Source of the DNA: Sclerodactyla briareus
Taxonomy: Eukaryota; Echinodermata; Holothuroidea; Dendrochirotida; Sclerodactylidae
Assembly (NCBI GenBank): GCA_026419785.1
Contig: JAODTK010000510.1
Location: forward strand, 62,001 to 126,000
Reading direction: 5' to 3'
DNA length: 64,000 nucleotides
Below the pieces are notes generated by a model. It was not told where the DNA came from, did not search any database, and saw nothing but the letters and a program-made list of their open reading frames with translations. Positions 8,826 to 53,555 of the stretch are shown here, in pieces; position 1 is the first letter of the stretch; the number at the start of each line of letters is the position of its first letter. Made by a program: the position numbers and the translations under genes.

Positions 8826-9560
8826 TCATTGCCCGGTCGCTAGGGTGTATTCGAACCGCCCTCCTGTGCTTTCCTGTACTGAATGTCCCGTGATCAGAGT
8901 GCATCGCCTGATCCTTGTCCGAGTTTTGCAACGACTGCACGCAATTATGTGTAAAAACATCCGTCGAAATTTTCTGTTCAGAATCCGTAGATATGGGTTT
9001 GCTGCCGGGAGTTAGAAAAGACATCATTGAAGTAACGCCCATAGCTAGAAGAGCGTTCGAAGTGGGGTTGTGTGAAACGACAAGATAAACGATACAATAG
9101 GGGGTCACACACGAAATAAAAATCCCATTACAATGAACAGTGTTAACGCGCCCTTCTTCTCCTTGCGCATGCTCGTAAACTTTTGAGCACGACTCGAGAA
9201 GACGCCATTAACTGTGTTCCTCTGGAAAGTGTGCTGGTCTACTGATGCCACTTCCATAGCCGTTACTCTCCTGGACTGTTTTCTAGCAACGACGAAGATC
9301 CTAAAGTAGCAGTAGGCAAGGACGGCGAAAGGTACAAGAAACGCGAGTGTCAGGTTGAAATACTCAAAGCCATGGCTGACCTCGGGCCTCCAATCAACGA
9401 CGCAGGTGCAAGTCCATGGTATGAATATGTATTTGGACCAACCAATACGGGCAGAAATAGCGATCAGTGAAGACATGCTCCATATGCATAGGAGTAGAAC
9501 AGCGGCACGTATGGTAGTCACAATGGTGGCATACTTCAATGGCTTCAAGATGGCAATTAC
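8826..9560 (-). CDS. Class A GPCR, last exon (ICL2 to C-terminal tail), frame broken by missing bases
   Basis: Seven-transmembrane receptor of the rhodopsin family, acting in the plasma membrane to couple a ligand to G proteins; the ligand is unknown. The exon follows a polypyrimidine tract and CAG acceptor (9561). It gives, in order: AILKPLKY of intracellular loop 2; TM4 (AAVLLLCIWSMSSLIAIS); an ECL2 with cysteines (CTC); TM5 (FLVPFAVLAYCYF); a basic ICL3; TM6 (RKEKKGALTLFIVMG, then ISCVTPY in another frame); and TM7 ending KPI..YGF.NRKFRR plus a Cys-containing helix-8 tail. The corrected frame stops at TGA 8828-8826. Four frame changes are needed: at the DRY junction, in the T-run near 9115, and near 8993 and 8982. 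Each is explained by one missing base. The CWxP tryptophan reads as Val. The ECL2/TM5 style recalls GPR161/amine-like orphan receptors, but the subfamily is not certain. Confidence 0.8.
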
Positions 9561-12118
9561 CTGGACCAAGAAGGAAAGATCTTAGACGAATAATACGTGC
9601 GTCTGTTTTAAAATGAGATGAAATACCTTCACAACAGTGCAATTGGAAACCGACCATAATGTATTGTTCGTAGTCATATTGCTATTGCCAATTTGCTCAT
9701 CACTAATTATAAACTGATCACTTCTGGGAAGTGTCACTGCGATCCACACTGACGTGAGGAAAACGAGAATGTACAGGTACTGTACATTCAAACCCTTCGT
9801 GATCTGTGGAATAAAACAACGTGACGTTCTTGCTATTTGGTCTTATGTTTAACTTTCTTACCCTGTCGAGCTATCGCTTCGGGCTTCGTTAAGGGTGGTC
9901 CACGTATACATAACCCGGTATAGTGAAAACCCTTCACTTTCTCCCGTGCTACGACTGAAATAACAAGTGACGTGTTAGATTATAAGGCTGCTGCAAAGGT
10001 GTCGAGAAAACGGTCAAAGAAAATAAGGTTCGTTTAATTAACGACAGGGATGAGAAACGTCCAACTCGTTGGTTGTTATATCTAGCAGCACTGTATTAAT
10101 AGTGATATTATTATCGCATGTTCTGGAAACGAACCTAAAGTGATGTCCAAGCCTAATTTGAGAGTTCAGTTGGTAATCGATTCGACACTGACCACCACCA
10201 TCGTCCGCCACTACGATAGCGAAAACCACGCAAATTAATGTCGGACAGACCAAGGTGGGTGTTTTTCACGCGATATGTCATACGATCATGTCAAATGACC
10301 AGAGACCTCGTGTAGGGACAGCTGGGGTACCATTTATAGACGTATTCTAATGATAACTTGTTTCATAATTTTTTCAGATGATGTTGATGTGCTTTCAAAT
10401 CCATTTCCAGTTTATTGGTCAGTAGAGTCCGGTTTCAGCAAAAGTGAACTCCCAAATATCGAGCGCAATTTGCCCTTTTCAGATTTGTTCCTTTAAATCG
10501 GGTTGAGATACTCAAAATAGGTTGAAGGTCCCCCACTTGAACATTTAGGTGCCTTTTCCTTCTTTTTGACGTGTGGAAGGGAAAATGGCTTTAGGCATGA
10601 CCAAAGACATACTAGCTCGATAATAGCTGTTCCCGCTACCTGATATTTGCATTTTGAGAAGCGAAGAGTACCACTCCATTCCGACATCCACCCTGATACG
10701 ACCAATCATCGCCAGAGGCCTCACTATAGGTGGCGACATCAAACCAAACAGCTCGCAGAAATCGATTACTGTCATGATCATTAGATGAATCCGCCCTTGC
10801 AAACATCGTCGAACGTTTGGGAGGGAAAAAGGAGGTGTTATCGCGTCTCTAATGGAGATGTATACAGTATCCGGTATTTTTAGTCCAAGGACTCGCCAGC
10901 CATTTGTTCTTGTGCGTGTGATTGGTTTGTTTGATGGAAGGACAAGGCAGAGCGAATGTGATTATCTCTAAGATACGACTTCCTGGCTATTATCTCTAAT
11001 TCGCGTAGGGATGTATGGGTTTCTTACTGAATGAGATCGAATGATTGAGCAAAATCGACATGGATGTGACCTTGTCGAATCGAGGGAGAGTTCAGTGGAG
11101 CAGTTGTAGGAGGTTATTTGATAGTTACTTTGATCAATTAACGTAACCTAATTACAATGTTATTCACGCAAGGGATATTCTAGAATTATGTTATCGTTGA
11201 ATAAGCTTGTGAAAGAAATAATGTCACACAAGCAAGGTTAGTCACGATTCGTCATTTCATGGTCACATGGTAATTGGGGGTCTGCCCCCCCCTTGCGTAC
11301 GCCACAGATTCGGGACCTCTGCTCACATCACTAGGACTTGCTCGATCGGTGCTATGTACCCATGCGCTGTGCTAATCGAGTCCAATGTGTGTAGTCTGCC
11401 ATTAACATGAGACTTGAATCTTGCCGTCGAACGGACATTTTTACAAGATCATTGTAAGACTGTTAGGTGAAAATGGTGACGTTTTATGCTCATTTTTAGG
11501 CCTAGAATTATGTTAGAAGGACTCCACAACCGTGCAATGTTGGCCCAAGCTTTGAAGCCCTGCACGTCCCTAATTTGCAATTGTATGAAATATTTGTGGC
11601 ATCTAACGATTCGTTACGTCAATTGGATGACACTCGTCGAGCGACATCGTCTCATTAAAAAAAAGCCTTGTATAAGTAATAACCATCTTGTAACAAATAC
11701 CGGTATACATCTGAATATGACCTCGTTGTTGCGTTGGGTCAGACAAACCTATAAATAAACTCAAGCCTCATATTGACCTAAACAAGCGGGCCCAAATTTT
11801 CTCCTAGGATACATAGCTGGTTAGGCTTCGCAAGAAGTGAACTGATGATCAGTAGTTTATTAATTGAGATTAGCTTCACGACACCGGGCATGTTTTTCTG
11901 ATCGATCCGTTTTCGATCAAATTGCGACCGTATAGTAACCCGTTTCTAGAGTGAGGTGTATTTTTTCTTTGTTTATCCCTGCCACTGTTGACGACCGGAC
12001 CCCTCCTGATTGATAGTCCGGTTTTCTAACTATTTGATCATGCGAACGGCCCGATCGAACTCGTTTGAGCACATGTAGTACAATCTAACATATAGTGCAC
12101 GATGGAAAGGGTTCATAC
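9561..12118 (-). other. Intron of the GPCR gene
   Basis: The intron runs from the donor AG|GTATGA (12119/12118) to the acceptor TTCTTGGTCCAG|G (9561/9560), interrupting the Arg codon of the DRY motif, a site where introns are known in class A receptors. Open frames inside it (9582-9791, 10038-10253, 10493-10802, all minus) have no homologue that I recognise. The first begins with a signal-peptide-like stretch and three N-x-T sites and is discussed in the findings. Confidence 0.7.
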
Positions 12119-12354
12119 CTGTCGAGGGAGACTGCTCCAAGTGTCATCACACTCGCACTTCCGAGCATCGTATGTAAGACACCAATGGTAATACACAGGC
12201 CATTCCCGAACCGCCACGAGGCGCCGAAGATAGACGTCATCACAGCAAAAGGTAGAATGACCGAACCTCTTAGCAGATCAGCGACGGCCAGAGACGCGAT
12301 GCTCATACCGGTCACCGTCGCGATACTTTTCGTTCGATAAACGACGTAGCACAC
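12119..12354 (-). CDS. Class A GPCR, internal exon (ICL1, TM2, ECL1, TM3 to DR of DRY)
   Basis: This 236-nt exon starts in phase 0 after TTTATTTTCCAACAG and ends at the donor AG|GTATGA, leaving two bases of the Arg codon. It encodes the end of TM1/ICL1 (VCYVVYRTKS), TM2 with the sodium-site motif LAVADLL, an ECL1 with W-x-F-G, the conserved TM3 cysteine (GNGLC), TM3 (TMLGSASVMTLGAVSL) and Asp-Arg of DRY. The exon frame is intact. It joins the exon at 9560-8826 about 2.56 kb downstream on the same strand, but the join AG|GTAATTGCC gives Arg then TAA instead of R-Y-I-A, as if one base were missing. An upstream exon with the N-terminus and TM1 is expected above 12.36 kb and was not found. Confidence 0.88.
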
Positions 12355-12626
12355 CTGTTGGAAAATAAACAAATCATGACGTTTTATGATTCCTTGATGG
12401 ACAGGTATAAGTATGTTTCTTAAAAATTGGTAGTATAACAAATATCGTTTGAGAAGATATTAAATGAAATGAAAATGTCAATGCAATCCGTTGTCGATAC
12501 AAGATATCGTAATATTTATACACTCTAAAAAGCCTAGTCCCTTGACCAGAAATCGAATCAAATGGGCACGTACCAGAATTCTGGTCAATTTTTAATAGAT
12601 TTGTTCAGTTAGAACAGAAAATAATT
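12355..12626. other. Probable upstream intron of the GPCR; 14-bp palindrome
   Basis: This follows the acceptor of the TM2/TM3 exon on the minus strand. It contains a perfect palindrome ACCAGAATTCTGGT near 12572-12585. The half-site motif TTGACCAG also recurs in the tandem repeat next to it. No coding sequence was seen. Confidence 0.45.
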
Positions 12627-28207: not shown

Positions 28208-29370
28208 TACAAAACGGAGACCGGAACCGCGGATATCCGGAGCCGCGGAGGCTGGAGCCGAGGAGCCCGCTCCTGAGGCCACAATGCTTGGGGACACTGA
28301 GGTCCGGAGCCAGAACCCGGAGTGCGGAACCCGGAGCCGCGGAGGCCGGAACCGGGGAGTCGCGGAGGCCGGAACTGCAGGGGCCGGAGCCGCGGAGGCC
28401 GGAACCGGGGAGTCGCGGAGGCCGGAACTGCAGGGGCCGGAGCCGCGGAGGCCGGAACTGCAGGGGCCGGAGCCGCGGAGGCCGGAACTGCAGGGGCCGG
28501 AGCCGCGGAGGCCGGAACCGCGGAGTCGCGGAGGCCGGAACCGCGGAGTCGCGGAGGCCGGAACTGCAGGGGCCGGAGCCGCGGAGGCCGGAACTGCAGG
28601 GGCCGGAGCCGCGGAGGCCGGAACTGCAGGGGCCGGAGCCGCGGAGGCTGGAGCCGAGGAGCCCGCTCCTGAGGCCACAATGCCTGGGGCCATGAGGTCC
28701 GGAGGCCAGACCCCGGAGTTGCGGAACCCGGAGCCGCGGAGGCCGGAACCGCGGAGTCGCGGAGGCCGGAACTGCAGGGGCCGGAGCCGCGGAGGCCGGA
28801 ACTGCAGGGGCCGGAGCCGCGGAGGCCGGAACTGCAGGGGCCGGAGCCGCGGAGGCCGGAACCGGGGAGTCGCGGAGGCCGGAACTGCAGGGGCCGGAGC
28901 CGCGGAGGCCGGAACCGCGGAGTCGCGGAGGCCGGAACCGCGGAGTCGCGGAGGCCGGAACTGCAGGGGCCGGAGCCGCGGAGGCCGGAACTGCAGGGGC
29001 CGGAGCCGCGGAGGACGGAATCGCAGAGGCCGGAGCCGCGGAGGCTGGAGCCGAGGAGCCCGCAGCTGCGGCAACTGAGGCCACAATGCCTGGGGCCAGG
29101 AGGTCCGGAGGCAAGAACCGCGGAGTCGCGAACCGCGGGGGGCCGGAACCGCAGAGGCCGGAGCCGCGGAAGTCTGGGGCCGCGGAGCCATGAGCCGCGG
29201 AAACCTGAGCCACGAAGCCATGAACCATGGAGCCCAGAATCGCGGATGCCGGAAAGCGAGCCGCGGAGGACGGAATCGCAGAGGCCGGAGCCACGGGGGC
29301 CGGAGACGCGGAGGACTGAGCCGCGAGCCATGAAACCCGGTGTCGCGAAGCCACGAGGTGCGGAGCGTCA
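28208..29370. repeat. GC-rich minisatellite with ~396-bp higher-order repeat
   Basis: The array is built from a 30-bp unit (GCCGGAACTGCAGGGGCCGG followed by AGCCGCGGAG) and a 23-bp variant (GCCGGAACCGCGGAGTCGCG plus GAG). A marker block, GCTGGAGCCGAGGAGCCCGC then CTGAGGCCACAATGC, recurs at 28251, 28647 and 29044, so the short units are organised in ~396-bp higher-order copies: two full and one decayed. The sequence is CpG-dense and rich in CCGCGG. It lacks stop codons in most frames, giving open frames of 389 codons (plus) and 446, 395 and 462 codons (minus). The 23-bp unit changes frame each time, which argues against selection for one protein. Confidence 0.95.
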
Positions 29371-29959
29371 ACCGTTTCGAAAAATTGTGGAAGAAGATGT
29401 GGACTGCAATTTACTATCTGAGCGGAGCCGCTACCATTGGTTAGCGCGTAGCGCCCCCACTTTTTCGGCTTGTTATACCTCATTAAATTGCCGGAATGAC
29501 ACTTGCCGGGACCCCAATTGGCCAAAAAAAAAAATCGGGATGTCAATTTCAGTAGAAAACATGTTTGAGACGTTGACACTTTTAACCAAATTGTTCAAAC
29601 AATGCTGCCCAACACTATCCACCAGTGGATTCTTTTTCTCAAGATTTTCAGAGACATCTGAGGAGAGTCAGTATCCCAGCAGAAATTAGGGCATTTAGCC
29701 AGCTTTAGCGCGACCTGTCCCAATCATATAAAAACGTTTTATGAATACAGAACAGCAGTCTGGCCCCCTGAAACCTCCAGGAATGCTATGCAGGTGCGAG
29801 AACACGTTCTCGTTCGACCATCCGTGATGTCGCCCGATTGAGGATGAATTCCTGGCACCTTTCCCGGCCAACGGTAGCTTCAAGACCTTCTCGGGAGCTG
29901 TGGTCATTCGGGCAGGATTGAAAAAACCTCTTCGCTTCACAATTTTCAAAGCAAACTGC
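29371..29959. other. Spacer between minisatellite and helicase relic
   Basis: The plus frame 29246-29689 leaves the minisatellite and continues for about 100 unassigned codons. The segment 29740-29959 could be more of the helicase retrocopy (its unconserved N-terminal part) because no boundary is visible, but no homology can be claimed by eye. Confidence 0.4.
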
Positions 29960-30676
<717 letters not shown>

Positions 30677-34700: not shown

Positions 34701-36712
34701 CGAGCTGACTGCTGAGAGACACATTTCCTATCGGAGCCAGAGGGCTTTACGTTGGTTACGTTACAGGTAATTCAGCGTCATGGGTGAATGGCTGGTCGAG
34801 GCGTAAGCTGCTATTGATCGCTTTCATTTCACCCTGGCAGCTACAGTTTAACACTATTTTTAGGAATTGTTTTGAGTTCAAAGGTTACAGATTTTGTCCA
34901 AAAGCAGAATACCACCAGACGCGATGTAACCACAAATTACAACTGCATTTTCGGTTGAGCCTAGCTGCGGAATAGAAAATTACATTCGCAAATTGGGGAA
35001 AAAAGGAGAATAAAAAACCGGAAGGAGAGGAGAACGTAACTAAGTCGACCACTCTTGTGAATTCTTCTCAATTGAACGATTCGAAAAACAGTGTTATTCA
35101 ATTCGACTATATGTTGTCCTCAACACGGTCTAAACTACCTCTCTCGTAGGTCTGTGTAAACTATTATTTTGCGCTAATTTACACAGTTTACTGTGGACTG
35201 GCTCCGTGTATATCAACTACTAGACTCTTAAGATAACACCGGATGGGTTAGTAAAATTCGCCCGACGTTAAGTAATAGTTCGAAGCTCCATTCAGCCTTG
35301 GAAGATTCGAGAAAAAAGCATCAATGATATTGAAAATGGATGCCATCTTTCGATACCTAACTACAAGAAAAACAATAGTCAAAATTACAGCATAGATATT
35401 TCTAGTCTGGAGGAAAAAAGTGACAGTCCGCGAAATTCCAAAGAAGCCAGTATATGTTAGCATTTGCATCTGCATTTGAATTCCACTCAATATTGTACTG
35501 GTGTCACAAAATGGCTCCGGACTCATGCATGATACTACGTGCACGTTCAGACGTTCCCGTCTGCCAAACGACGGTCAGAGAGTCCTTACTACTGAAGGAT
35601 TTTCTTTTCTAGCAATGCTCCGAGCCATTGCGATGTCTACTCCTATAACGAGGATGTATAAATAGACTGCACATTTACTAGTGCCTTCGTGTTGGCGATT
35701 AAATAACCACAATGAGCTGTTAGTCAATCTCGGTATACCTACGCATATCATCGGAATGAAGACCGTGAGGAAATGAATACCTATTTACAGGCTACCAGTT
35801 AAGCTAGCATGCTAGTTAGCTAGCTCAACTCGGGTTGGGGAATGCTGTACCACACGATATTCTTTTTTATGACTGGTTTTCGGCTGTTCGCAAACACGTT
35901 GTAAATATATTTATCATATAAATAGTGTTGCAGTGTGGAGCAGAGGAACGCTGGAGAATAGTGCAGATCGACACAGCGCTTATCAAACGTCACAACTACA
36001 TGTATATATGCGCGGCCTATCCCACTCGTAACTTACAGTAACTACCTGTACAGATCGTAGTGCTACATCAATTGTACGGGCTTTTCAACTCCACTATATT
36101 TTGGAATGTTATTCACCATATGTGTGAACATACCAAGGATTTCCTTCTGACATTTTCCTATCATGTGAGATTTTTTTTTTTCTCAACCCGATGTTTTTTA
36201 CAACAACCGATCCAGCTTCCGATGTCTAGTGTGGAGACTTGGCAACAAGGACAGATTGACAGCTCGCAAGATGTTCTTTCGTGAACGAATCCTACATCCT
36301 ACGCCTGCACCATTCTTACCTTAGCGAGTTGAATACAGCCTCATTGATTGGTAAAACTAGCAGTGACTGCACTCAGGACGCCATATTGCAGTTCTTGATT
36401 TTGTCTTGTCATCTGCTTCCCAGTCGATTGTTATATCCCCGTGATATGATTAGGTGGAACGTTGACTTCCGTAAATAAATATTGAACTGTTTCGCTGCCG
36501 TCTACACGCTGCTTAGATTACCATGTGTTGTTGCTATCAGTCCAAGGCGAACAGGTGGATTCAACAGCATCACCTATCAAACACTTATTCTGGTGCTGGA
36601 CTTTAATAGTTTTTTTCTTCTCTTTTTGAGATGGCTGCATTCCGACCAGTCGGATCAGCCAGTCCGTGATCGTGAAACTTGCTCCGAATTAGGTAAAATG
36701 CTCGCTCAAATT
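31771..36712. other. No recognisable gene
   Basis: 31.78-31.95 kb is purine-rich and may be the decayed continuation of the RT relic. At 33140-33300 a segment starting AGAGCAGGCCTCCTCAACT resembles the ends of hAT-type non-autonomous elements, but no matching opposite end was found. Between 33.4 and 36.7 kb only short frames occur (33367-33621, 33763-33990, 35248-35544 minus, 36060-36284, 36482-36847), none with a domain. Confidence 0.45.
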
Positions 36713-36745
36713 ATTATTATTTTATTATTATTATTATTATTCTCT
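36713..36745 (-). repeat. (TAA)n 3' tail of the CR1-type LINE
   Basis: TTATTATTATTTTATTATTATTATTATTATT on the plus strand reads as TAA repeats on the strand of the element, placed directly after its C-terminal coding region. Short microsatellite tails instead of poly-A are typical of CR1/L2-like LINEs. Confidence 0.8.
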
Positions 36746-38879
36746 TACTTTGCCATTGTTGGAAGTATGTTACATTACCTGGATTCACCTGGATGGCCCC
36801 CCTCGTCGTCTGGTTTCAGGAGGTCTTCTGAAGATAATGGCTCTTAGGGATAGGAGGTCTAATGACCCTTGAAGATCCCGCACTCAGCTATTTCTGTTCT
36901 TGAAAATATTCAGGGTTTGGGCTGTGACTGCTTCCTGCGGCAGTTGTATTCCAAGTTACCATACATACAGAAATCATGGGCGTTCCGTATTACTTCCAAA
37001 TGCACTGTTGATGGTCTTATTTTCAGTGAATGTCCTCTAGTCCGACTCTCTGTTTCTCCTATGATTTCAGCAAAGTCATCCACATTGTTGCTTATATCCT
37101 TCTTGTGTTTATATTGGTACTGTAATTCAGATCTGTGGCGTGAAGTGGCGTTGTTCTATTGTCATCAACCTCAAATCTTTCAATCTCGCTTCGTACGACT
37201 TATTTCTCTGCCTATGGATGATTTTGTCATTCTCCTTTGCACTACTTCTAATAACTCAATGCCTTTCTTCATCTGGTCTCCAGGCGGGTACACAATAATC
37301 CAATGGGGCGGTTTGGCCTCACAAGGATTCAGCACTACCTTAGAGTCTAAGTTGGTGAAATTCTGTTTTATAATTCCCATCACTCTATTCGCTTTTTTTA
37401 GCAGATTCGCCACTGTCCTACTAAATTGCATAGTTTGTATTCACAATATTCCCAAACCCTTCCCTTCCTCTGTTCTCACTAATTCCTTTCCGTCCATGTA
37501 ATAGTCGTAACTTCGGGTTCCCATATCCAAAATGCATCACTGACCATTTTCCAACATTTAATTTCATTTGCCATTTCTCTTCACCGTAATGAGTAGATGC
37601 ATATCCTCCTGCAGTTGTTGCTGATCGTACATATTTGTTATAGTGTGCACCACTTCGTATCATCTGCAAATTTACTAAGTTCTTACTTAACCTCAATGTC
37701 TTATCGTTCATGAACTATTGAAACAACCGGACCCAGCAATGCCCCTTGTACCACTGATTGTTACCTTTCTCCATTCAAATACTTTCCCATTTCGAACAAC
37801 CCTCGCTGGCCGATCCTTTTAGCCACCTCTCGATCCATGTTAATATCAGTCCATTTATTCCATTTGCTTTCAGTTTTGCAACTAACCTCCGTGTGTGGTA
37901 CAGTGTCCGAACGCTTTTTGTAGTCAGTATATTACTCCACAGATGTTCCTTCATCTATTATCTTTGTTAACGGTCCCAGTGAACCCACTATTTGATAGGC
38001 AATACGTCCTCTTCTGAACCCTATGCAGATAATCACGGAGTTGGTGTTTGCATAGTAACCAGACAAGACGAGCCAGACATGTTGTGTGCTATTATCATGT
38101 GTTTTGTATTCCCGATGATCCGTCTGACATCTCTCAAAAGCATTTCCATTACTTTTCCCAGGTACAGATGTCAAGTTCACAGCGGTAGTTGACACATCTG
38201 AGCAATCTCCTTTCTTGAAGAGAGGTGCTATGTTTGCTCTTTTCCATTCTTTGGAATCTCCTGACGTTCTTATGGATTCTCAAAAATATTATCAGGTTTC
38301 CTCATCTTCCCTCGCCCTTTCTTCATTAGCTGGTTTGATGTTATCTTGTCCAGCAGCTTTCCCTTTCTTTATTTCCTGTATTTTCTTGGGGACCATCTCT
38401 TCATTTATGTCTAAGTTTCCAATATTTACCAACCCTCCCTTGGGAAGAATATTTTCTGATCCGGTTATTTTTTCTTCTTCACGTGTAAGCACTTCAGAGA
38501 AGAACTTGCCCTGAGAGCCTCTGCTGTTTCCAAATCATCCATTGACCCTTCTCCGTTTTCATCCTTTATTGGGCTTACTTTTTCTCTGACTTTTTGTTTA
38601 GATCGTACATGAGTAGAAATGTTTGGGTCGTCTTTAATTTTCTGCCAGCCTTTCCTTTCGAATCCTTCTTTCTTTTTATTTGGCGTCTCCACCTGGTTTT
38701 GCAGTGATTTAAAGTCTCCCAGCCCGTTGGTTCTTTGTCTCTTGTAGTCTTTCCAGGTCTTTCGTTTTTTCACCCCCCTCCCCTAATTCGGGCAGTGCGC
38801 TGTTGGGTTTTCGGGCCCGACCTGAAATATTAACAGTATCTTTTTTCGGGACGAATCACGACGCCCCCTATATCTAATC

Positions 38880-39475
38880 GGGCCCCCTACGCCCATGCTT
38901 CTCTTTGCCAGTTCATAAACCTTTGTGCCTGCTCTTCTTGTCCCCTTGTAATCATTGTTCGTCCATAGAATGTGCTCTGTAATCTTCTGAAACCAAATAT
39001 TGTCCTGCACTGTGCAAAAACTCCTTGAATTTGGTGGTCTCCTCCCATTCCCTTCCAGTTAATGTCGGGGTAATTGAAATCCCCGTGCCACATAACTCAC
39101 TGAACTGGCCACCTTTTCCATGGTGTGATCCGGTCTTCTCATCTTCCGGTTTCTACTTGGACTGCTGTATACTGCTCCGAAAATAATTTGCTTCTCTTCC
39201 ATATCGTTTGCACCACAGCGATTCCTTAAACTGCCTCCGCTCTCCCTCTCTCTGCATATTGTCTCATTTTAATAAATTGCTACAACACCACCAGTTCTAT
39301 TCATTCTGTCCTGTCTTAAACACTTGAAACCTGTAATCGCTACTTCTCCTTCCGCTAATTTATTGTTAAACCAAGTTTCTGTCATCAATCACCATATCCA
39401 AGTGTTCAACACAGACATAACTCTGTAAAAGTCTATTTTTGCAACTAGGCTCCTGGCTTAACAACATACATTTTA
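38880..39475 (-). pseudogene. APE-type endonuclease domain of the CR1-like LINE
   Basis: NARSLVAKIDFYR marks the start of the domain. LMTETWFNNKL carries the catalytic glutamate (TETW), RQDRMNRTGGVVAIY is the DR..GGV block, and GDFNYPDINW is the GDFN catalytic block (about 39088-39059). The domain nicks target DNA for target-primed reverse transcription in intact elements. Stops and frame changes (after GGVVAIY and before GDFN) break it here. All key residues listed are still readable. Confidence 0.85.
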
Positions 39476-40255
39476 AATTCAAGTTTTTGATTACATGACT
39501 ATTTACATTCTGGTGTTCACTCTGTTCTGTTCCTTATTCCCCCCATTCCAAAGGTTCTATTTTTGTTGCGATGGTATGTCTCATAACTTATGACAAGCTT
39601 CCCTTGATTAAAATCTCAGATCGGTTTCACCCTTCCATCGCATTTTCATCTCTTTCTCTGAGCTTTCCCTCCGTTCGCTGTTGATATATAGGTCCGGCCG
39701 TAGCTTAGACTTATTGTACTGTGCATGTCAGTGTCTCTCAGTGCTTTGCCCTCTCGGTAACCTTGCCCTTGGCCCCTCTCGGGTTCTTCATCTCTACACT
39801 TACATACCTTTTGTCTTTCAGTTTATTTACTTGGGTTATGTCACGGGGAGGGAAATTGTAAACTTCTGCGCAAGTCTTCAACTTTCCCAGCAGTTCTCCT
39901 GTGTGTCGCCATCCTTCTTCAGTTATTAAGAACCACTCTATTTTTCCTCCTTTCCCTCTGAGCCTTCGCTTCCTTTCTGGATTTCCTCATTTCTCCCTGA
40001 TGTTGTCGACATTGCTGACAGTTGCTCTCTCATGTCTCCGAGTTGTACTGCACACTGTTTTTTTTATCTCTTTGGTCCCTTGTACTTCATAATCCACTGC
40101 TTTGTCATTACAGTTTCTACAGAACAATGAATTTTTCTCCAACTGTCGCAATAGTAGAAAGTACATTCCTTTGGTACATTTGCACATGCTATATGGTACC
40201 ATATGACAGTATTCCATTGTAAGCTTCATCCTTGTCTCCCACATCCTTTCTACAC

Positions 40256-42445
40256 ATCAGCACATTTATTCGATCTTGGCATATAGACAACTGGCCGTAC
40301 CTCGGAATCCTACCCGATTCTGGGAGGTGCTAGGACCGCTCCTGAAGATGTGGCCACTCGAGGATCGCTTTGTTTGACCAGCTGCTCAGGTTGTGCTTCC
40401 CTGGAATTCTCAGCAGGTGACCATCCAGGTTGGAGCTCACTGCACCAATAAGCGCACTGATCACGACTGGGACCACCTCTGCCTTCACATACCCACAGCC
40501 TTTGAATTTCCAACTTCAGGTCTGGGTACTTCATGGTATTCTCTGTTCATTACTTGCGATATGTCCTGTCAGCTGGATGCCACTCTATTAACGATACTGT
40601 CTGGTCTTCTTGGCTGTGATGACCTATCTTTCCTCACCTTGAAGTCCTAGAGTATTTTGGTTGTTTTCCTATTTCCAGTACTGCGTCTGGTTTTTGAGCC
40701 ATCGGTGTGTAGCCCTAGTATATGTGTATTGTCATATGACCAGTGTAAGCTGCTGCTACGCTGTGTGTCTCCTCAGATACTCTGACCGGCTAGCTTCGAC
40801 AGCCGATATGAGGTGGTTTACTGTCCTCATCTGCCACTCTGCACAACCGGCCCTTGCTGTCAGTCGACACTCTCATGATACGAATTTGGTGGTTATTCGT
40901 ATTGACTATTCAGTGCCTGGTCTTGTGCCGTGTGATGCCCGCCTCTGTTTTCGATTCAGGCCCTTAGCCTGACACCAACCTGCATGCCCTTATCTGTGGG
41001 TAACGTCCTCCACTTGCCGAGGATATTGCCCGTGCATGGGCTTGTCTTCCATTTCTTCTCATATTTATGTTTCCATTTTGATTTCCATTCAACCTTTCCT
41101 TTTCCTTCTCGGTGGGTTCCCGGATTGACATGCTGCTTCCCCTTAAGGGTCTTCCTCCTTAAAATCCAGGTACTCGATGAGCCCCGCAACGTCCCTCACT
41201 TATCGTGCCCTCCGCTTCATTGAGAACCCTGCTACCCCTCCGCCTCGGTAGAGAAGTCTGTGGCTGTCCCGCTCTCGATGGAGCCCCCCCTTGAATATTG
41301 AGGAGTTTGCTCGAGTTTTTCGGTCGACTCGCCATCTCGCTTTGTGTCCAGTCCAATATCCTGCAGTGTAGCTCAGTACCGGCATGACGCATATGCATTC
41401 ATGCTTTGGATTTTTTTTGCTCGTTTAGCTTGGTCTTCCGGACCTGGCGCACTCTTTTGGTGTAGGTCTTGGAGCATAAGCCTTCACTTTGCTCTTGGAG
41501 GTTCTCCATGCTCTGTAGGATACCAAGGTACTTGTACCCTTCGTTTCACGTCGACGTCATATTCTGCCGATTTTCAGCACGAGCCCTTGTGTATCCGCCC
41601 TCCCTCTATGGGCGATCAGTCGCCCGCACTTCTCGAGGCCGAACCGCATTCCGATATCCTCTCTGAGATCTGGAACTTAGTGGATCATTGAGTCGATGTC
41701 CTGCTCCTTCTCCCATAGAGCCTGGTCACCCTGCTACAGCAGTGATGGAATTGGTGTGACCTTGACTCAGAGTGTCGCCTCGTTGTGATTTCTCAGTATG
41801 TGGCTGAGGGTGTTGAGTGCCACACGAACCTAGCGTGACAATGCGTCCCCTTGGAAGATCCCACTCTTAATTGGATCTGGGCCAGTTGTTTTGCCCGCTT
41901 GCTGGAGGTTAGTGGACTCCATTTCGCATGGTACTGGGATCAAATTCATACCGTCTGGTCTATCTTGTCATTTTCATCGTCTATTATCCATGAGTGTGGT
42001 ACGGAGTCCGTAGGCCCTTCTGGATAGTCGACCACGCTACTGCTAGCCTTCGTTGGCGGCGAAGTTTTTCTCGAAGTCCTTGCTCACGGCCTTGTTAATG
42101 ATGAGCTGGTCTTGTGGTTCCCCTACTCTCTGGCCTAACTCCTTTCTTTTTCCTCAGCGAGCAATGTTATGCTAGTCCTGGTGAACCTGATCTGGTCAGC
42201 CAGAGTGCCAGACAGCAACTTCAGTGGTCGGGAGGCATGTGATTGGCCCTGAATTTTTGCTGGTGAGGGGTCTTTGTTGGGGTCCTTCTGGATCAGGCAT
42301 GTCCTTCCAATCGTCAACCTGTAGGTGTGTCGACTGGGTGTCCCACAAGTTGCTGCAACTGTGTCGTTATTCTGTGGTGGAGGGTGGTCATTTTCTTCAC
42401 CAGAAGGCCTGTACCTGGTCTGGTCCGAGGGACTTCCAGTTCGAC
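40256..42445 (-). mobile_element. Second decayed LINE: polyprotein relic, R2/NeSL-like type
   Basis: Minus-strand translation in shifting frames gives LGPDQVQAFW, GPITCLP, DQLIINKAVSKDF, QDIDSMI, IGMRFGLEKCGRL (about 41.65-41.60 kb), YKYLGILQ, INTYA/YSAGILDWTQ-like blocks (GILDWTQ region about 41.35 kb), RGLISVE-like decay, KPMHGQYL and, at the end, KYPDLKLEIQRLW followed by a VVPVVISALIGAV block. This order matches a family of invertebrate and fish non-LTR polyproteins with a C-terminal restriction-like nuclease region. The catalytic DD box before QDIDSMI is lost. The 5' part is missing at a TAA microsatellite (42454-42485). The 3' end abuts the PHD start of the CR1-type element. The clade is an inference. 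Confidence 0.75.
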
Positions 42446-43495: not shown

Positions 43496-44164
43496 CATTT
43501 TCACGGGGGTTAATGTATATACCAGTTACAAAAACTCATCGGATACAAACGAAATACCTCAGATGCAATTCGGTGCAATGTAGCTCACCTCAAAAGTCCT
43601 CAGTTGACCGATAGTGGTTGATTGCAGAGTGTGCCATAAGAAAAGCTGAAAATAACTATGGTGTGTCTATGCTGAGATCTGAAGTTGACCTTCGACTACT
43701 TTCGTCTTCTCGCATCCTGGCCGGAGAACGTTCGAGGAATTATATATAAAAAAATTATTGCAAAAAGAAAAAACAAAAACAATGCCGGTCTCAAAATATC
43801 CAGTTGGCCTCACAACGTTAGAACCCCCATGAACATCTTCATTGATGTACTCAAGCGCCATAAAGGGCATTTGATGGAGGATAGTTGGTGTTCAGGGAAG
43901 ACTACACTATTAGCTCAACCAGGTGTCCTCTGCCCTCTTGAATACGTCTTCACTTACCAGACCAGCAATGTTGGGGGGGGGGGGGGAGGTGTTCTATTTA
44001 CGCAGGGTCCTCGGAAAGTAGGAACCCCCAGCGGCATTGACACGACAGACCACGTTTTTGAAAGACTGACATTTGAGTCCAAACTGCACTCCATATAGGG
44101 GGTAAACGTGACAGGGGCGAGGGGGTGACCCGAGAGACTATATTCAAATTTATAGGGTTTTGTT
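43496..44164. other. No recognised gene; 15-G run at 43.97 kb
   Basis: A 137-codon plus frame at 43685-44098 crosses a G15 run (43973-43987). No domain was found in it or in the opposite frame. This stretch lies where the 3' half of the 2A-LINE should be, so it could be unrelated DNA joined by a deletion. Confidence 0.45.
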
Positions 44165-44979
44165 TTGTCCCAACCACACTGGTGAGATGGGACGGTAGTT
44201 TTCCTAGTTAGTAGGTAGTTTTCTATGAATAGGAGTGAAATTTGCCTTCTTAAAATCATCGGGGAAAATTCTGTGTCGAATGACTGTTGGAATAAGGATA
44301 CAAGTACCGGAGTGATTTCCTTGGAACAATTTTGAGTAACCTAACAGGAATTTGATCTGGGCCAGTAGCCTTTCTCTCCTGAAGTTAGGAGAGAAGTTTG
44401 CAGACGCCATTAGGGCGTGACAGTTAGTACAGCAGGGATGGGTAGGCGGATACACCCTTGTTGGGAATGGAGTGACCACTGTGGTCACGATTGGTGAACA
44501 CAGAGGCAACGTAATCATTTAGTAAGGTTGCCTTTGCCTTGGCATCACTAACATTGTTTCCCTGGTGTTTTAGGGATGAAATGCCATATTGGTCTTTCCT
44601 TTGACTTTTGACAAACTTGAACAGATTCTTCTTGTTAGCTATGTCGGACTCTTGATTGTCGAACAACTTATTTACATAGTTCCAATAGGAATCCTTAATC
44701 AGTTTGTCAAGGAGTTTACAATAGTGTGTATACTGTGGGACGTCACGAGGTCTTCTACCCTCTTTCAGTAAGGAATCGAACAGCCGACGTCGCTTAGCAA
44801 TATGTTTTTTTAGGAAAACCAGTAATCCATGCGGTAAAACTATTTTCAGAAATATACTTAGAGGGGATAAACATGGCTTGGGCTTTCAGGAGGAAAGACT
44901 GAATGGAGAGAAAGTTTTCATCAACAGACTTTGTATGGGCCTCAGCACAGTAGATGCGAGCAAACTCAGTTGCAGCCAG

Positions 44980-45612
44980 TTTTAGGCCCGTTGTGCCACC
45001 TTTGTTCCATTGGTAGATTTTCCGGGGGGGGGGGGGGTCTTGTTAATTGGAATGGAACAGAGAATGTCAGCAAGGATGATGTTATGGTTATTCACTGTGC
45101 TTTTCCCGAGAATAGTCGTGATAGTAGTAACAGAGTCGGGCTTGTTTGTCAGGAGAAGGTCAAGAGTGGAATCGCCACGAGTAGGGATAGTAACCATTTG
45201 GTCAAGTGCGAAGTCGGCAGTTAGTTCAGTCAGTTTGCCACAGGATTCGGGGTGGGCAGCTCTGGGTTTATTAGAAAGGGATGACCAGTCTATGTCTTTC
45301 AAATTGAAATCTCCACAGAGGTACATAGGGGTATCAACGCCCTTTTTTGGGGGAACAGAATCAATACTCTGTCTTAGATTGTCAATGTCGTGGGCGGAAG
45401 AACCTGGTGGCCTATAGTAGACTCCAAATATAAGGGATATGTTATGAGAGGCAGATATGTGGGCCTATTTGATCTCACAGATAGAGTCACTATCGATTTC
45501 AGTGGCTATAGTTTCACAGCCAAGGACGATATCAGGGCTATAATTTCAAGCAGGGTGTGAAATCGCGCCCGCTTGTTAGCAGAAACAAGACTGTTGAAGT
45601 TTATTATAGTAG
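44980..45612 (-). pseudogene. APE-type endonuclease domain of the 2A-LINE
   Basis: The domain begins with INFNSLVSANKRARFHTLLE and a CET block (45.6-45.5 kb; the usual TETW is changed). It continues through VYYRPPGSS, DNLRQSIDSVPPKKG, LCGDFNLKDIDW (GDFN catalytic block near 45310), FALDQMVTIPTRGDSTLDLLL and NNHNIILADI in place of the usual SDH motif (HN instead of DH). The loss of SDH and the G-run insertion make it inactive. The 114-codon open frame 45326-44982 is the largest intact piece. Confidence 0.85.
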
Positions 45613-45864
45613 CATAAATTTTGTGCTTGATAGAGGGAGGAGTATTTCTTTTCTTTTGCCTAGGGTGGTGTTTGGCCCTGGTGGATTTGGAGTTGATGGT
45701 ACGCGGTCAGTGGTTCTGTCGTTAATCTCAAGAGGAGGGGGGAAGTGGGGAGAGGGCCGCAGTAAGTAGAGGCAGTATCGAGAGTGACCAGGGAAAGGTG
45801 AGAAGGTCAAATGAGTTAGATAAGTCCAAGGACTGGTTGAAAAATGGGGGTGTTATATTTGGAG

Positions 45865-46032
45865 CATCGCAAAGATGACAAATCCAAGCGAAACTTTTGT
45901 TAAGGTCGGTGTGGGCATCATAGGAGATGTCGCTCATATCAGAGCAGGATGAATGGAGTAATTTCCACAAGAATCACAGTCGATACTTTTTTCTGACCAT
46001 GAACAGTTTCTGCCACACCAACCACATGGCCA
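45865..46032 (-). pseudogene. PHD-type zinc finger after the 2A-like motif
   Basis: Cysteine pattern C-G-W-C-G-R-N-C ... C-D-S-C ... W-K-L-L-H-S-S-C ... W-I-C-H-L-C fits the C4-H-C3 spacing of a PHD finger, a known component of the N-terminal region of invertebrate CR1-like elements. One frame change, between CDSC and WKLLHSSC (about 45965), splits it across two open frames. The role in the element is presumably nucleic-acid or chromatin binding and is not known. Confidence 0.85.
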
Positions 46033-46038
46033 GTATTG

Positions 46039-46062
46039 AGGGCCTGGATTTAGTTCTACATC
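46039..46062 (-). other. 2A-like translational recoding motif DVELNPGP
   Basis: GAT GTA GAA CTA AAT CCA GGC CCT on the minus strand encodes the exact D-V-E-x-N-P-G-P consensus, preceded by a hydrophobic stretch (PLILLTVHFLSANLQSS). In this class the ribosome fails to form the Gly-Pro bond, releasing the upstream peptide and continuing with Pro. 2A-like motifs are documented in CR1 and related LINEs of sea urchins and other invertebrates. The motif lies 50-57 codons after the first ATG, directly before the PHD finger, as in those elements. The motif itself is intact although the rest of the element is broken. Confidence 0.9.
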
Positions 46063-46132
46063 GCTAGATTGGAGGTTGGCAGATAAGAAATGGACAGTTA
46101 ATAATATGAGGGGGGAGTATTTACTAAGATCC

Positions 46133-46240
46133 CTAAATAGGGTAGCATGAAAATGCATGCATATATTCTTCCCTGGTATTGAAGTACTAAATAGGGTAAC
46201 ATGAAAATGCATGCATATATTCTTCCCTGGTACGACTTCA
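46133..46240. repeat. 54-bp tandem duplication at the 2A-ORF start
   Basis: CTAAATAGGGTAGCATGAAA and CTAAATAGGGTAACATGAAA start at 46133 and 46187, a period of 54 bp. The unit includes AATGCATGCATATATTCTTC. It equals 18 codons and keeps the frame, duplicating the start codon (ATG at 46212 and 46158) and the peptide PGKNICMHFH.TLF. Confidence 0.93.
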
Positions 46241-46251
46241 AGTACACTGCA

Positions 46252-48879
46252 CTAAGCAGTTTTACTGTAACATACTACAGTTCTGTTCAAGAACTAGCCA
46301 CAACCTAGTCACATTAGGGGAATTTGTCTGCGATATTTGTGCCTCGGAGAGTTTCTGTACGAGGAAGTTTGACGAAGTCGCCAGCTGCGTGCATGCAGTT
46401 AGTCGCTTTCTCGCGACTAGCTGGGTACGGTTGCACTGACATACACAGTCACCGAAGCGTATTGACTTACACCTCAAGATCCATCTAAGCTAATTGTTAC
46501 AAACACGGATAGCATCCCAAGTGTAATGTTCCAATCTTTCTGCTCAGAAAAAGATTACCCTTTGAACCCAAGTCACAAGGATGTGAAACAGGTTTAAGAA
46601 TCTCTCCGCTGAATTTGATGAGTAAAAATCTTCTACTGATTTCGAGAGGACTCTGCCGGTTTGACTGGGGAGTACATTCGACTGTGCTGATAACAACGAC
46701 CGTGACTGTAACATAACTGGAAGGGTATAAATTGACCGCAATGTCACGAGGATGGAGTTGTCTCTAATCTGCGGGACGATGCCCGTCTCTGACCAAGAAT
46801 TGCCTCAATGGATAAGGCTCTAAGCATAGGTCCTGATTCTATCGATTCTTTACAATACGCCCAGCCAATCTGGGAACATCTTATTGAAGGCTTGATTTAT
46901 TCTTGGGTCACAAATACATGTTCCTGCTTCCCGGGTAATCTTAGAGGGGTCTCATACGTGGAGAATTGATTCATCGATTTCCATGGTCTCGTTTTCATGT
47001 CTGTCCACCAGCTCAAGGATACTTTCCGAGGAGCCCGAGGGTGATGAACGCTCTGAAAACAATTGTGTGAAATCTACATAGAAATGTGAACCAACACGTT
47101 CCACGTCACCCATAGCCAGTAACGAATGATAAATACTTATACAGCACACGTGATGAACCATGCATCACTAACTACTGATGTGTAGTGCACTATCAAATCC
47201 CCCCCCCCTGTGTGAAGAAAGAAATATGAATTATAGAGTAAACAACGGATTAAAGGTTTGAGAGCTCTCATCAGTTATTACTGATGGGTCTATGGAAATC
47301 GGTTGCCTACGTCATATGTGGATAATTCCTGTGTTAAATCATAAATGCCTTAGCATGGCTTGAATACAAATTATGTAAAAATAATTGGAATTTTACTGCA
47401 AACAGGTCTGGAAATTACACATATGGCTACTTGGATCTCTCTACATTCGGGCACTGAATGCGGTTAGTACACTCAAACTGTATAATACACTGTATGATAT
47501 AATGATTTAGGAAGTTTCCCGACTAAGAATTCCAAATATAATTCACCCAATTGATCGTGTTCTGAAAGCCCGTAAAGTTACGTTCATAATTGCGCTATGC
47601 ACCCGTATTATCTACAACCGATCTTGGCAAAATAATTCACTCCCACCGACAGTCGGAAACAAATACCGTCCAACAAAGATCATACTGATACATATTGCAT
47701 AACGTCAGCAGAATAATCTTTTTTACACTGTGATGAACAATTCGCTCATATAAAATGTTTCCCTTTAATGGATAGAAAATCAGTTCACTATATACGATAA
47801 CGTCCCTTTCCCCCAAAGATTGTTTCCACTAATATAATGTACGTGTATATCTGTGTAACGACCAATAAAACATTTAATGACCGATAGCGGTCGAGAACAC
47901 CATTATCTCGAGATTCGTTTTAATGGTTGACGATGTGGCATTTTCAATATGTACTACATTATTCTGCAAATCAGGGTTGTCATCGATCGAAATATCTCCA
48001 TATCCTACACCCCGTTACAAAAATTAATCATCAGTGGTTCTTCGATTAAGTCGGAGACAACTGTTAGTACAATCCCCCCAGGCTAACTCGAAGGTCGAGC
48101 GTACGACGAAAACAATTTCGTTGCAACAGACTTGTTTTGGGACGGAAATAGAAACATTTATTAGGTGCCCACCAAGGTTGTTTTCAAGTGAGCAGACTGC
48201 AAAGAATATCGGGCGGTGTAGGGTTACTTCTCGGAATTGCAGAGGTGTGCCGTAACAATGTATAGATGTACTCAAACGCACTGACAAATTTTTGTGTTTT
48301 GTTTCATGATAGGGGCATTCTTCCATCTTGTCCCACTGAATATCAAAGTTTCGAGTAATCATTTTTAACAAAGTGGTTTATTGCAATATTAGCGATAACG
48401 AGCCAGGGTACGGTATAGTGTCACGTACGGGGTATTGCAATTTCAGCTACATATTCAAAATTGGAGTTGAACAAGGGACAAGGGGAGTTTTAACCAACAG
48501 TTATTTTCCCATATTTTTAACAACCTTGTACTTAACATAAGAAAATGGTCCCGTTCGTGACATTCCAGCATATCAATCACAGACAAAAGAAGCCATCCAC
48601 ACTGGTTAAAATATGCTGTCAGATGAACTACGGGTATTGGTTGCCATATTTATCGTGTATGCCCAGGAATATTGTGAGACGTATGAGGAGGATATCTTCT
48701 AAACCAATTTTCAGTGATGTCGATAAGAGAAATATCGTGATCAGACCAACAGACCACATGCTCGAATATTGGAACATTTGAGCAGATAACAGATATACTG
48801 ATATCTCAATTACAGTTAAGAAGCCAGTTAAGTGAGCCCGGCGATGCAAAAGAATGCGTTTAAAAAGCATAAAGATGAG
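46252..48879. other. No recognised gene; possible decayed coding on the minus strand at 46.9-47.2 kb
   Basis: A minus frame at 47161-46952 ends in an acidic, serine-rich stretch. It is followed after a stop by a readable segment (REAGTCICDPRINQAFNKMF), which looks like decayed coding but matches nothing I know. At 46785-46860 a tRNA-like scrap (TCAATGGATAAGGCTCTAAG) lacks a T arm. Frames at 48024-48371 minus and 48545-48781 plus are unassigned. Confidence 0.4.
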
Positions 48880-51335: not shown

Positions 51336-51985
51336 GGGCCAGTATATACATGCTATTATTTTTGCAAACATATTTGACATCTGAGGTAGAAATTATTATG
51401 CTGAGAGATCGGTTATACAGACGGAACAAGATGATTTACAAACTATTTTGATCGCACTATGTTTACAGCCTAGTAAGACTCAAAACAAATAGTGCAGATG
51501 TAAAAAATCATTCCCACTTCAGCTAATGGGAGAAATTCAGAACAGTTGTGAAGGTGCGGTTGTTATTTTGTACGTACTTGATCGGATGCCTCTCTATCCA
51601 TCGAAGATATATTCTATTGCAGTTGGTTGTGGCGTGTAATGCCTGAGACGAGGTTGTATATTTCTGCTGGAGCCGAAAGAACTGCATCAAACTACAAATT
51701 CACATGGGATTTTGAAACATGGTTGGAATGTAATAAAATAGCTACATAACATCGATATTTGCCACTGCAGGCGCGTGGCCGGCTGGATGGGACGACATGT
51801 ACAGTATGCGCGCGAAGGTAGTTTTTGTTCGACAGCTTCGCAAGGAACAGATTGAGTGGCTTAGTATTAGCTTTTTGGGGTAATACGATATGTAGCAATA
51901 GTCTGCTGTACTGGCGAAAACGATCATGAGTAGGATTTGTGTCACATTTGTCCAAGATTTCACTATGGAGAGGTCACGCAAATGA
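51336..51985 (+). repeat. 649-bp tandem duplication, copy 1
   Basis: Begins near GTATATACATGCTATTATTT. CTGAGGTAGAAATTATTATG occurs at 51381 and again at 52030, a period of 649 bp. The copy runs through TACGTACTTGATCGGATGCC, ACATAACATCGATATTTGCC and TTAGTATTAGCTTTTTGGGG to GGTCACGCAAATGATAGG. Confidence 0.9.
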
Positions 51986-53555
51986 TAGGTCCGTATACAT
52001 CCTACTATTTTCGCAAACATATTCGACATCTGAGGTAGAAATTATTATGCGGAGAGATCGGTTATACAGACGGAACAAGATGATTTACAAAATAGTTTGA
52101 TCCCACTATGCTCACAGCCTATTAAGACTCAAAACTTTATTATATAAATACATATTAGAGTATTGTAGCTTAGTATGGGGCGAATGCAGCGCCACCTATG
52201 CCCTCATACTTACGCGGTTACAATAGTCCGCCGCTGGAATAATTCTCCATGCCACTTTCAATGATAGGTCTGAAGTCCTATTTCGCACTCTAAACTGGTC
52301 CTCTCTTGAACAAGTCTGAGCTATAAAAGTTTGGTGATGGTGTACAAAATATTGAATGGGCTAGCACCCCAGTACCTTAGGGATATGTTTTGGTTCATTG
52401 GCGATGTACGTGGTCACTCCCTGCGGTCCACCACCCAATACAACTTGTTTCTGGAGGGTGGGAAAACCCCAGTTCGACATCAAGTCGTTCTCCTTTACGT
52501 GTTTTATAGATTTATAATTGTTTTTGTAAACGTTTCTACGTCCATCTATGTTCCTTAATTTTCTTTTACAATTCACTATTGTCTTTTTACAAGGGCCTCG
52601 TGTGAGATTAGCGTCACCGCTAACCGAGTTCTTACCCTTCAATGTTCAAATAAATAAGAACGATGAGGGCAGACGTAAAAAAGATTCCCACTTCCGCTAA
52701 TGGGAGATATATAGAACAGTTAGCAGTTAAAGTGCGGTCACTATTTTGTACGTACTTGATCGGATGCCGCTCTATCCATCGAAGATGTATTCTATTGCAG
52801 TTGGTCTTGGTGTGTAACGCCTGAACGAGGTTGTATTTTTTGTGTTCATATCAGAACTGGTCATTAGTAACTACATATCCTCGGCAAGAATCTGTTATTA
52901 CACCGTCTGGAGAGAACAAAAAAACACATGACTTCTCTCTCTCCCTCTTTTTTTATTTTTGAACACCTCAGTTCAATATATATTAGCTTGAGACAAAAAT
53001 GGCAATGTATAACATTCTCTATGTAACCGCATGACCATATTGATGATCACACAGGAATGTTTCTCTGGCTTTTCCATGTAGAACTGGTCGTTGTAAGCAA
53101 CAATTCCACTGTTTTCTTTTTTGATGTCTCAGTTAAATGGGAAGTCAAAATTAGAAATAGCCATCTTTCTCGCCGAGGTATTGATTGAATTCTCTCACAG
53201 CCGGCCTGAAAAATCTAGCATCATCGCGTTTGAGCTGAAAAAAAATGCAACAACTGCAAATTTACATGAGATTGTGAAACTTGATTGGGATTAATAAATT
53301 ACTACATAACATCGATTTCTGCCACTGCAGGGGCGTGACTGAATAGGACGACATCTACAGGAAACGCGCCAAGGTCGTTTTTGCTGGTCAGCTCTGTAAG
53401 GAACAGACGGAGTGGTTTAGGATTAGCTTTTTGGGGAAATACGATTTGTTGCAATTCCCTGCATGCTGCACTGGCGTGAGAAGATCATGTGGAGGATTTG
53501 TATAAACATTTTCCCAAAATTTCACTATGGAGAGGCCCACGCAAATGCCCAGAAT
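51986..53555 (+). repeat. 649-bp tandem duplication, copy 2, split by two insertions
   Basis: Matches copy 1 from 51986 to about 52133, then from about 52664 to 52842 and from about 53245 to 53555. The first interruption is a LINE 3' end. The second (about 400 bp, 52843-53244) has no terminal repeats that I can see and is unassigned. The order shows that duplication came first and the insertions later. Confidence 0.85.
52134..52663 (+). mobile_element. 5'-truncated LINE, RT C-terminal end and 3' UTR
   Basis: The translation gives KYILEYCSLVWGECSATYAL, LTRLQ, LFRTLNWSSLEQ, VYKILNGLAPQYLRDMFWF and GHSLRSTTQYNLFLEGGKTP, the characteristic block after the RT domain of jockey/CR1-like LINEs (usual form YCxxVWG, LQ.RAARII, LNW, MYKILNGLAP.YL). 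Frame changes and a stop inside make it inactive. It ends near a TTCAAATAAATAA tail. Its boundaries are fixed by comparison with the uninterrupted copy 1 of the 649-bp duplication. Confidence 0.88.

Follow-up and report, generated by a model that had tools for sequence, protein, structure and literature searches.

A 2A-like octapeptide ahead of a PHD finger in a decayed APE-type LINE of Sclerodactyla briareus

2A-like (StopGo) sequences are very rare in cellular coding sequences (PMC12846837), and virus-like 2A sequences that recode translation in the APE-type LINEs of multicellular organisms are the subject named in the title of Odon et al. 2013 (cited in PMC12846837). That such sequences occur in non-LTR retrotransposons is on record in the literature, PMC4981915 included; a preliminary description of the locus treated here had stated it for CR1-like elements. 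A second group of described elements is made up of LINEs that apparently have a single ORF and begin with a PHD finger. They are found in CR1 subgroup 6 and L2 subgroup 4; the suggestion was made that they may have reverted to an R2-like plan or may parasitise other elements (PMC4120745).

We examined a locus with features of both groups in a stretch of 64,000 nucleotides from the holothurian Sclerodactyla briareus (contig JAODTK010000510.1, positions 62,001 to 126,000), hereafter the window, within which all positions are counted. A 2A-like octapeptide, the order of the parts around it, the Cys/His pattern of a PHD finger, an endonuclease match and the damage to the copy were all observed directly (table 1). 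With a probability of roughly 0.8, the sequence represents what truncation and mutation have left of a PHD-first LINE with a single ORF, of CR1 or L2 lineage, whose ancestor would have used StopGo at NPG/P to release a leader. In the living ancestor, translation would probably have started a short way upstream of the hydrophobic leader, and at NPG/P the ribosome, obstructed by the nascent leader, would have failed to form the bond (StopGo). A short leader peptide would thus have been released, followed by a PHD-endonuclease-RT protein with an N-terminal proline. The skipping, the start site, the role of the leader and the lineage of this ancestor are what we infer from the relic.

Table 1. Parts of the LINE relic in reading direction, with positions in the window
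Feature	Positions	Strand	Basis or remark
Direct-repeat copy 1, 46 nt	46187..46232	-	98% identical to copy 2
Direct-repeat copy 2	46133..46178	-	54-nt spacing from copy 1
In-frame ATG 1, candidate start	46210..46212	-	57 codons to G of NPG
In-frame ATG 2, candidate start	46156..46158	-	39 codons to G of NPG
Hydrophobic stretch LILLTVHFLSA	46078..46110	-	mean Kyte-Doolittle 2.16, 11 residues
2A-like octapeptide DVELNPGP	46039..46062	-	pattern search, codon reading
PHD finger C4HC3, first to last Cys, two frames	45869..46026	-	Cys/His pattern and Pygopus/MLL match
APE-type endonuclease, broken	45063..45604	-	PF14529 at 45425-45081; GDFN at 45314
Open stretch taken as endonuclease-RT linker	44424..44885	-	by eye; no Pfam family above cut-off
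RT start, several frames, lost after NYRPIS	44183..44372	-	by eye

The exact octapeptide reported in the preliminary description was confirmed by codon reading and by pattern search. On the minus strand, D-V-E-L-N-P-G-P is spelled by the codons from 46062 to 46039; the frame that contains them runs open between 46251 and 45934, and its 105 codons comprise the leader, the motif and the first half of the PHD finger. DVELNPGP fits the expanded StopGo core (D/G/C/N)(V/I)ExNPGP (PMC12846837). A degenerate DNA pattern for it, corresponding to D[V/I/M]ExNPGP because RTN permits Met too, matched once in the 64-kb window and in none of 100 dinucleotide-preserving shuffles. Even with up to two mismatches, DVELNPGP was still the sole match in the window, and 8 of the 100 shuffles then gave at least one. 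Base composition leads one to expect about 6e-5 such octapeptides over the six frames of the window. Because of this expectation and the empty shuffles, a chance origin was rejected, and DVELNPGP is not a chance occurrence. To see in it an accidental match within non-coding 5' sequence, one could point out that the start codons of the upstream frame are candidates only and that the region contains a tandem duplication; yet the motif is also in frame with the first PHD cysteine, which follows four residues after it, and so we consider such an accident extremely improbable.

Ahead of the motif lies the hydrophobic stretch that had been claimed there, and just 5' of this leader is a direct repeat. 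Its 54-nt spacing equals 18 codons, so the repeat is in frame, and a 33-nt part of it had no other occurrence in the window at up to three mismatches. Regarding a separate ORF1 farther upstream, the observation is that the frame is closed beyond 46251. Both in-frame ATGs are one codon duplicated, 54 nt apart. The leader of about 57 residues given in the preliminary description stands insofar as a Met is found 57 codons before the end of NPG, but this length is weakened because it counts both copies of a nearly exact duplication of an 18-codon unit; from the second Met it is 39. In some apparently single-ORF, PHD-first LINEs the sequence 5' of the PHD finger is highly repetitive, and the 46-nt duplication therefore fits this kind of element (PMC4120745).

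Whether the ancestral motif would have skipped depends on more than the octapeptide, since activity is governed by residues ahead of the core (PMC4981915; PNAS 2026; a 2024 paper). The named upstream classes are an L-rich type ending in (A/S/C)G, DLTxE/DLTxDG and PAPRLV; sequences with Asp at p12 strongly prefer Gly just before it, and the Asp-core classes end in Gly (PNAS 2026). The hexapeptide preceding DVELNPGP in the relic is ANLQSS, with Ser directly before Asp, and a comparison by eye with the text of these classes matched it to none of them. In the sea urchin leader SpNLR2A6, R11A and changes of L13 and L14 substantially cut skipping, while changes of L16 had little or no effect (PMC4981915); at the positions numbered in this way the relic has Q11, N13, A14 and L16. 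Moreover, sequences bearing the motif are not all active (2024 paper), and the rarity of StopGo in cellular coding sequences (PMC12846837) also counts against a skipping ancestor. Going by these residues, an intact octapeptide need not equal an active 2A. It might then be that the locus preserves a real LINE N-terminus of a lineage whose 2A was already weak or inactive, the leader having mostly stayed fused to the PHD protein. The non-canonical ANLQSS with its Ser at p11, the Q, N and A at sites where changes reduce SpNLR2A6 activity (PMC4981915), and the inactivity of some motif-bearing sequences (2024 paper) all point that way. However, 28% of the surveyed viral StopGo sequences likewise fall outside the classes (PNAS 2026), and in a decayed copy the upstream residues may differ from the ancestral ones. 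We regard a weak or inactive ancestral 2A as rather unlikely, and an ancestor that would have released its leader as the better account; the upstream residues by themselves do not decide between the two.

A PHD finger had been claimed directly after the motif, and it is present by its Cys/His pattern, though split by a frameshift: C-x2-C-x12-C-x2-C lies in the frame of the motif and H-x2-C ... W-I-C-x2-C in another. When the pieces were joined with X and compared with solved chains, 14 distinct sequences matched at E up to 10, of which 13 were Pygopus or MLL PHD fingers (best E 0.0015) and one was unrelated. The matches included 3zpv (E 0.0015), 2vpb (E 0.058) and 3lqh (E 0.084), which are top matches for the PHD fingers of various LINE subgroups (PMC4120745). 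By subgroup, the top match is 2vpb for L2_4 and 1wep for CR1_6 (PMC4120745), and 1wep was not among the solved-chain matches to the joined pieces. The first piece alone, with the motif, gave nine matches (two Pygopus at E 0.19 and seven unrelated), and the second piece alone matched no solved chain. In Pfam no form of the query matched a PHD family, the hits being a sub-threshold C1_2 and other weak families. Thus the PHD assignment consists of the Cys/His pattern and a moderate match, the latter conditional on joining the pieces. The split also bears on the idea that selection kept the motif in an exapted host gene. Leader, motif and half of the PHD finger do share an open frame of 105 codons, but that frame stops inside the PHD finger, the remaining zinc ligands lie in another frame, and the survival of a 24-nt motif in one copy would require no selection. 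Exaptation is very hard to credit.

The whole order claimed in the preliminary description, that is, motif, PHD finger, APE endonuclease and RT start, was recovered, the endonuclease by Pfam (PF14529, E 1.6e-11) and the RT start by eye. The ends of the endonuclease and its N-terminal part were placed by eye. Against solved structures the endonuclease gave nothing meaningful: a single match at E 0.021, presumably to a leptospiral protein, going by its name, and two matches (best E 0.056) when the N-terminal pieces were joined to it with X. From the Glu of CET (45515) to the Asp of GDFN (45311) there are 68 residues, against about 102 for what we take to be the corresponding separation in the human L1 endonuclease, and because of this difference an internal deletion in the endonuclease is likely. 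In the RT start, KATGPDQIP, ANFTPI and NYRPIS are what we take to be LINE RT motifs; Pfam gave no match for this part, and a NYRP-type pattern had its sole match in the window at 44200. Beyond 44183, a six-frame text search with seven RT/endonuclease patterns found a FADD-type motif only at 37670, in another LINE relic. The RT core of the copy is lost, or is beyond recognition by those patterns. Over the three minus-strand frames, six frame changes, one of them at a poly-C run, and four in-frame stops were counted by eye, and with this damage the copy is unable to make the protein. It had rightly been called dead.

The label "CR1-type LINE" held in part. That the locus goes back to an APE-type LINE stands, but CR1 membership is unproven, since PHD-first elements occur in CR1 as well as in L2 and the RT core that would tell the two apart is missing. 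Further copies and relatives were sought in several ways. In a blastn search of 44101-46300 against the window, no second copy was among the matches listed: besides the query there were 25, none longer than 24 nt. The listing did not include the known 46-nt duplication within the query. In viral contigs, 18 stretches fit the peptide pattern of the endonuclease and none was confirmed as a relative. The octapeptide followed by four residues and CxxC, searched as DNA, had no match in viral or in genome contigs, which as non-animal collections carry little weight.

Several other features were recorded in the window. A second dead APE-type LINE relic, read by eye, lies at 36900-39400 on the minus strand, with TETW at 39382, GDFN at 39084, FADD at 37670 and an RT motif like ANIAPLFKKGD within 38279-37932. 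It adjoins an (ATT)n tract (36710-36741), and Pfam matched none of three ORF pieces from this relic. Partly over this relic, at 36001-42000, the plus strand is skewed in three 2-kb steps (GC -0.11 to -0.25, AT -0.21 to -0.31). Within a GC-rich tandem array at 28215-29325, with periods of 15 nt and 397 nt, several reading frames of either strand are open and encode low-complexity repeats in which Pro, Arg, Glu, Gly or Ala are abundant. About 600 bases past the array, at 29922-30544 on the plus strand, two overlapping frames carry helicase fragments of the DEAD/DEAH-box kind (PF00270 at E 3.2e-10 and, below the cut-off, at E 0.00016), which are RecQ-like by eye. Rhodopsin-family GPCR fragments were found on the minus strand at 9105-9581 and 12085-12459 (PF00001, E 4.6e-15 and 3e-18); they span the adjoining parts 85-213 and 5-84 of the 260-position profile and are perhaps exons of one gene. 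Three direct-repeat pairs of 79-92% identity at 51345-53547 are possibly unclassified transposable elements. By their content, the receptor and helicase fragments together with the LINE relics are suggestive of an animal genome. The whole window contained no tRNA and no Rfam family at the gathering score.

The preliminary description also stated, in the context of CR1-like elements, that the released leader can act as a signal sequence. The experiments apparently meant do not show this: they concern sea urchin NLR proteins, in which the unskipped fusion enters the exocytic pathway and the protein downstream stays in the cytoplasm once skipping has occurred (PMC4981915). One could speculate that in single-ORF, PHD-first LINEs a released hydrophobic leader replaces the missing ORF1 product, variable skipping splitting the PHD-endonuclease-RT protein between membranes and cytoplasm. 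We consider this improbable and mention it as a speculation. Should the host carry intact copies, a comparison of their leaders would tell whether the unusual upstream residues reflect decay or a genuinely low-efficiency 2A, and would bear on how one-ORF LINEs do without an ORF1 protein.

A claim of novelty was considered and rejected, as both 2A in non-LTR retrotransposons and PHD-first, single-ORF LINEs (PMC4120745) have already been described. In the literature covered, to which subscription papers contributed little, we found no paper joining a PHD-first LINE with 2A, and we do not claim that this combination is unpublished.

The locus is a fossil of a known 2A-bearing LINE system, not a new one; being one dead copy, it is a further case of a known arrangement. 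The 2A of L1Tc of Trypanosoma cruzi (Heras et al. 2006, as cited in later papers) likewise lies in a non-LTR retrotransposon, but in a different host. L1Tc belongs to another LINE lineage. Sea urchin NLR leaders are alike in that an N-terminal hydrophobic leader ends in D(V/I)ExNPGP; in contrast to the relic, they belong to cellular proteins and not to LINEs, and their export signal works when skipping fails (PMC4981915). To judge by the title of Odon et al. 2013 (MBE), APE-type LINEs with a virus-like 2A are treated there, and the relic, an APE-type LINE with DxExNPGP ahead of its endonuclease, would be of that kind; it differs in being dead and in its unusual upstream residues. Finally, the LINEs of CR1 subgroup 6 and L2 subgroup 4 resemble the relic in their N-terminal PHD finger, endonuclease and RT, and in their repetitive 5' region, whereas NPGP is absent from the main text that describes them and an RT would be needed to fix the subgroup of the relic (PMC4120745).
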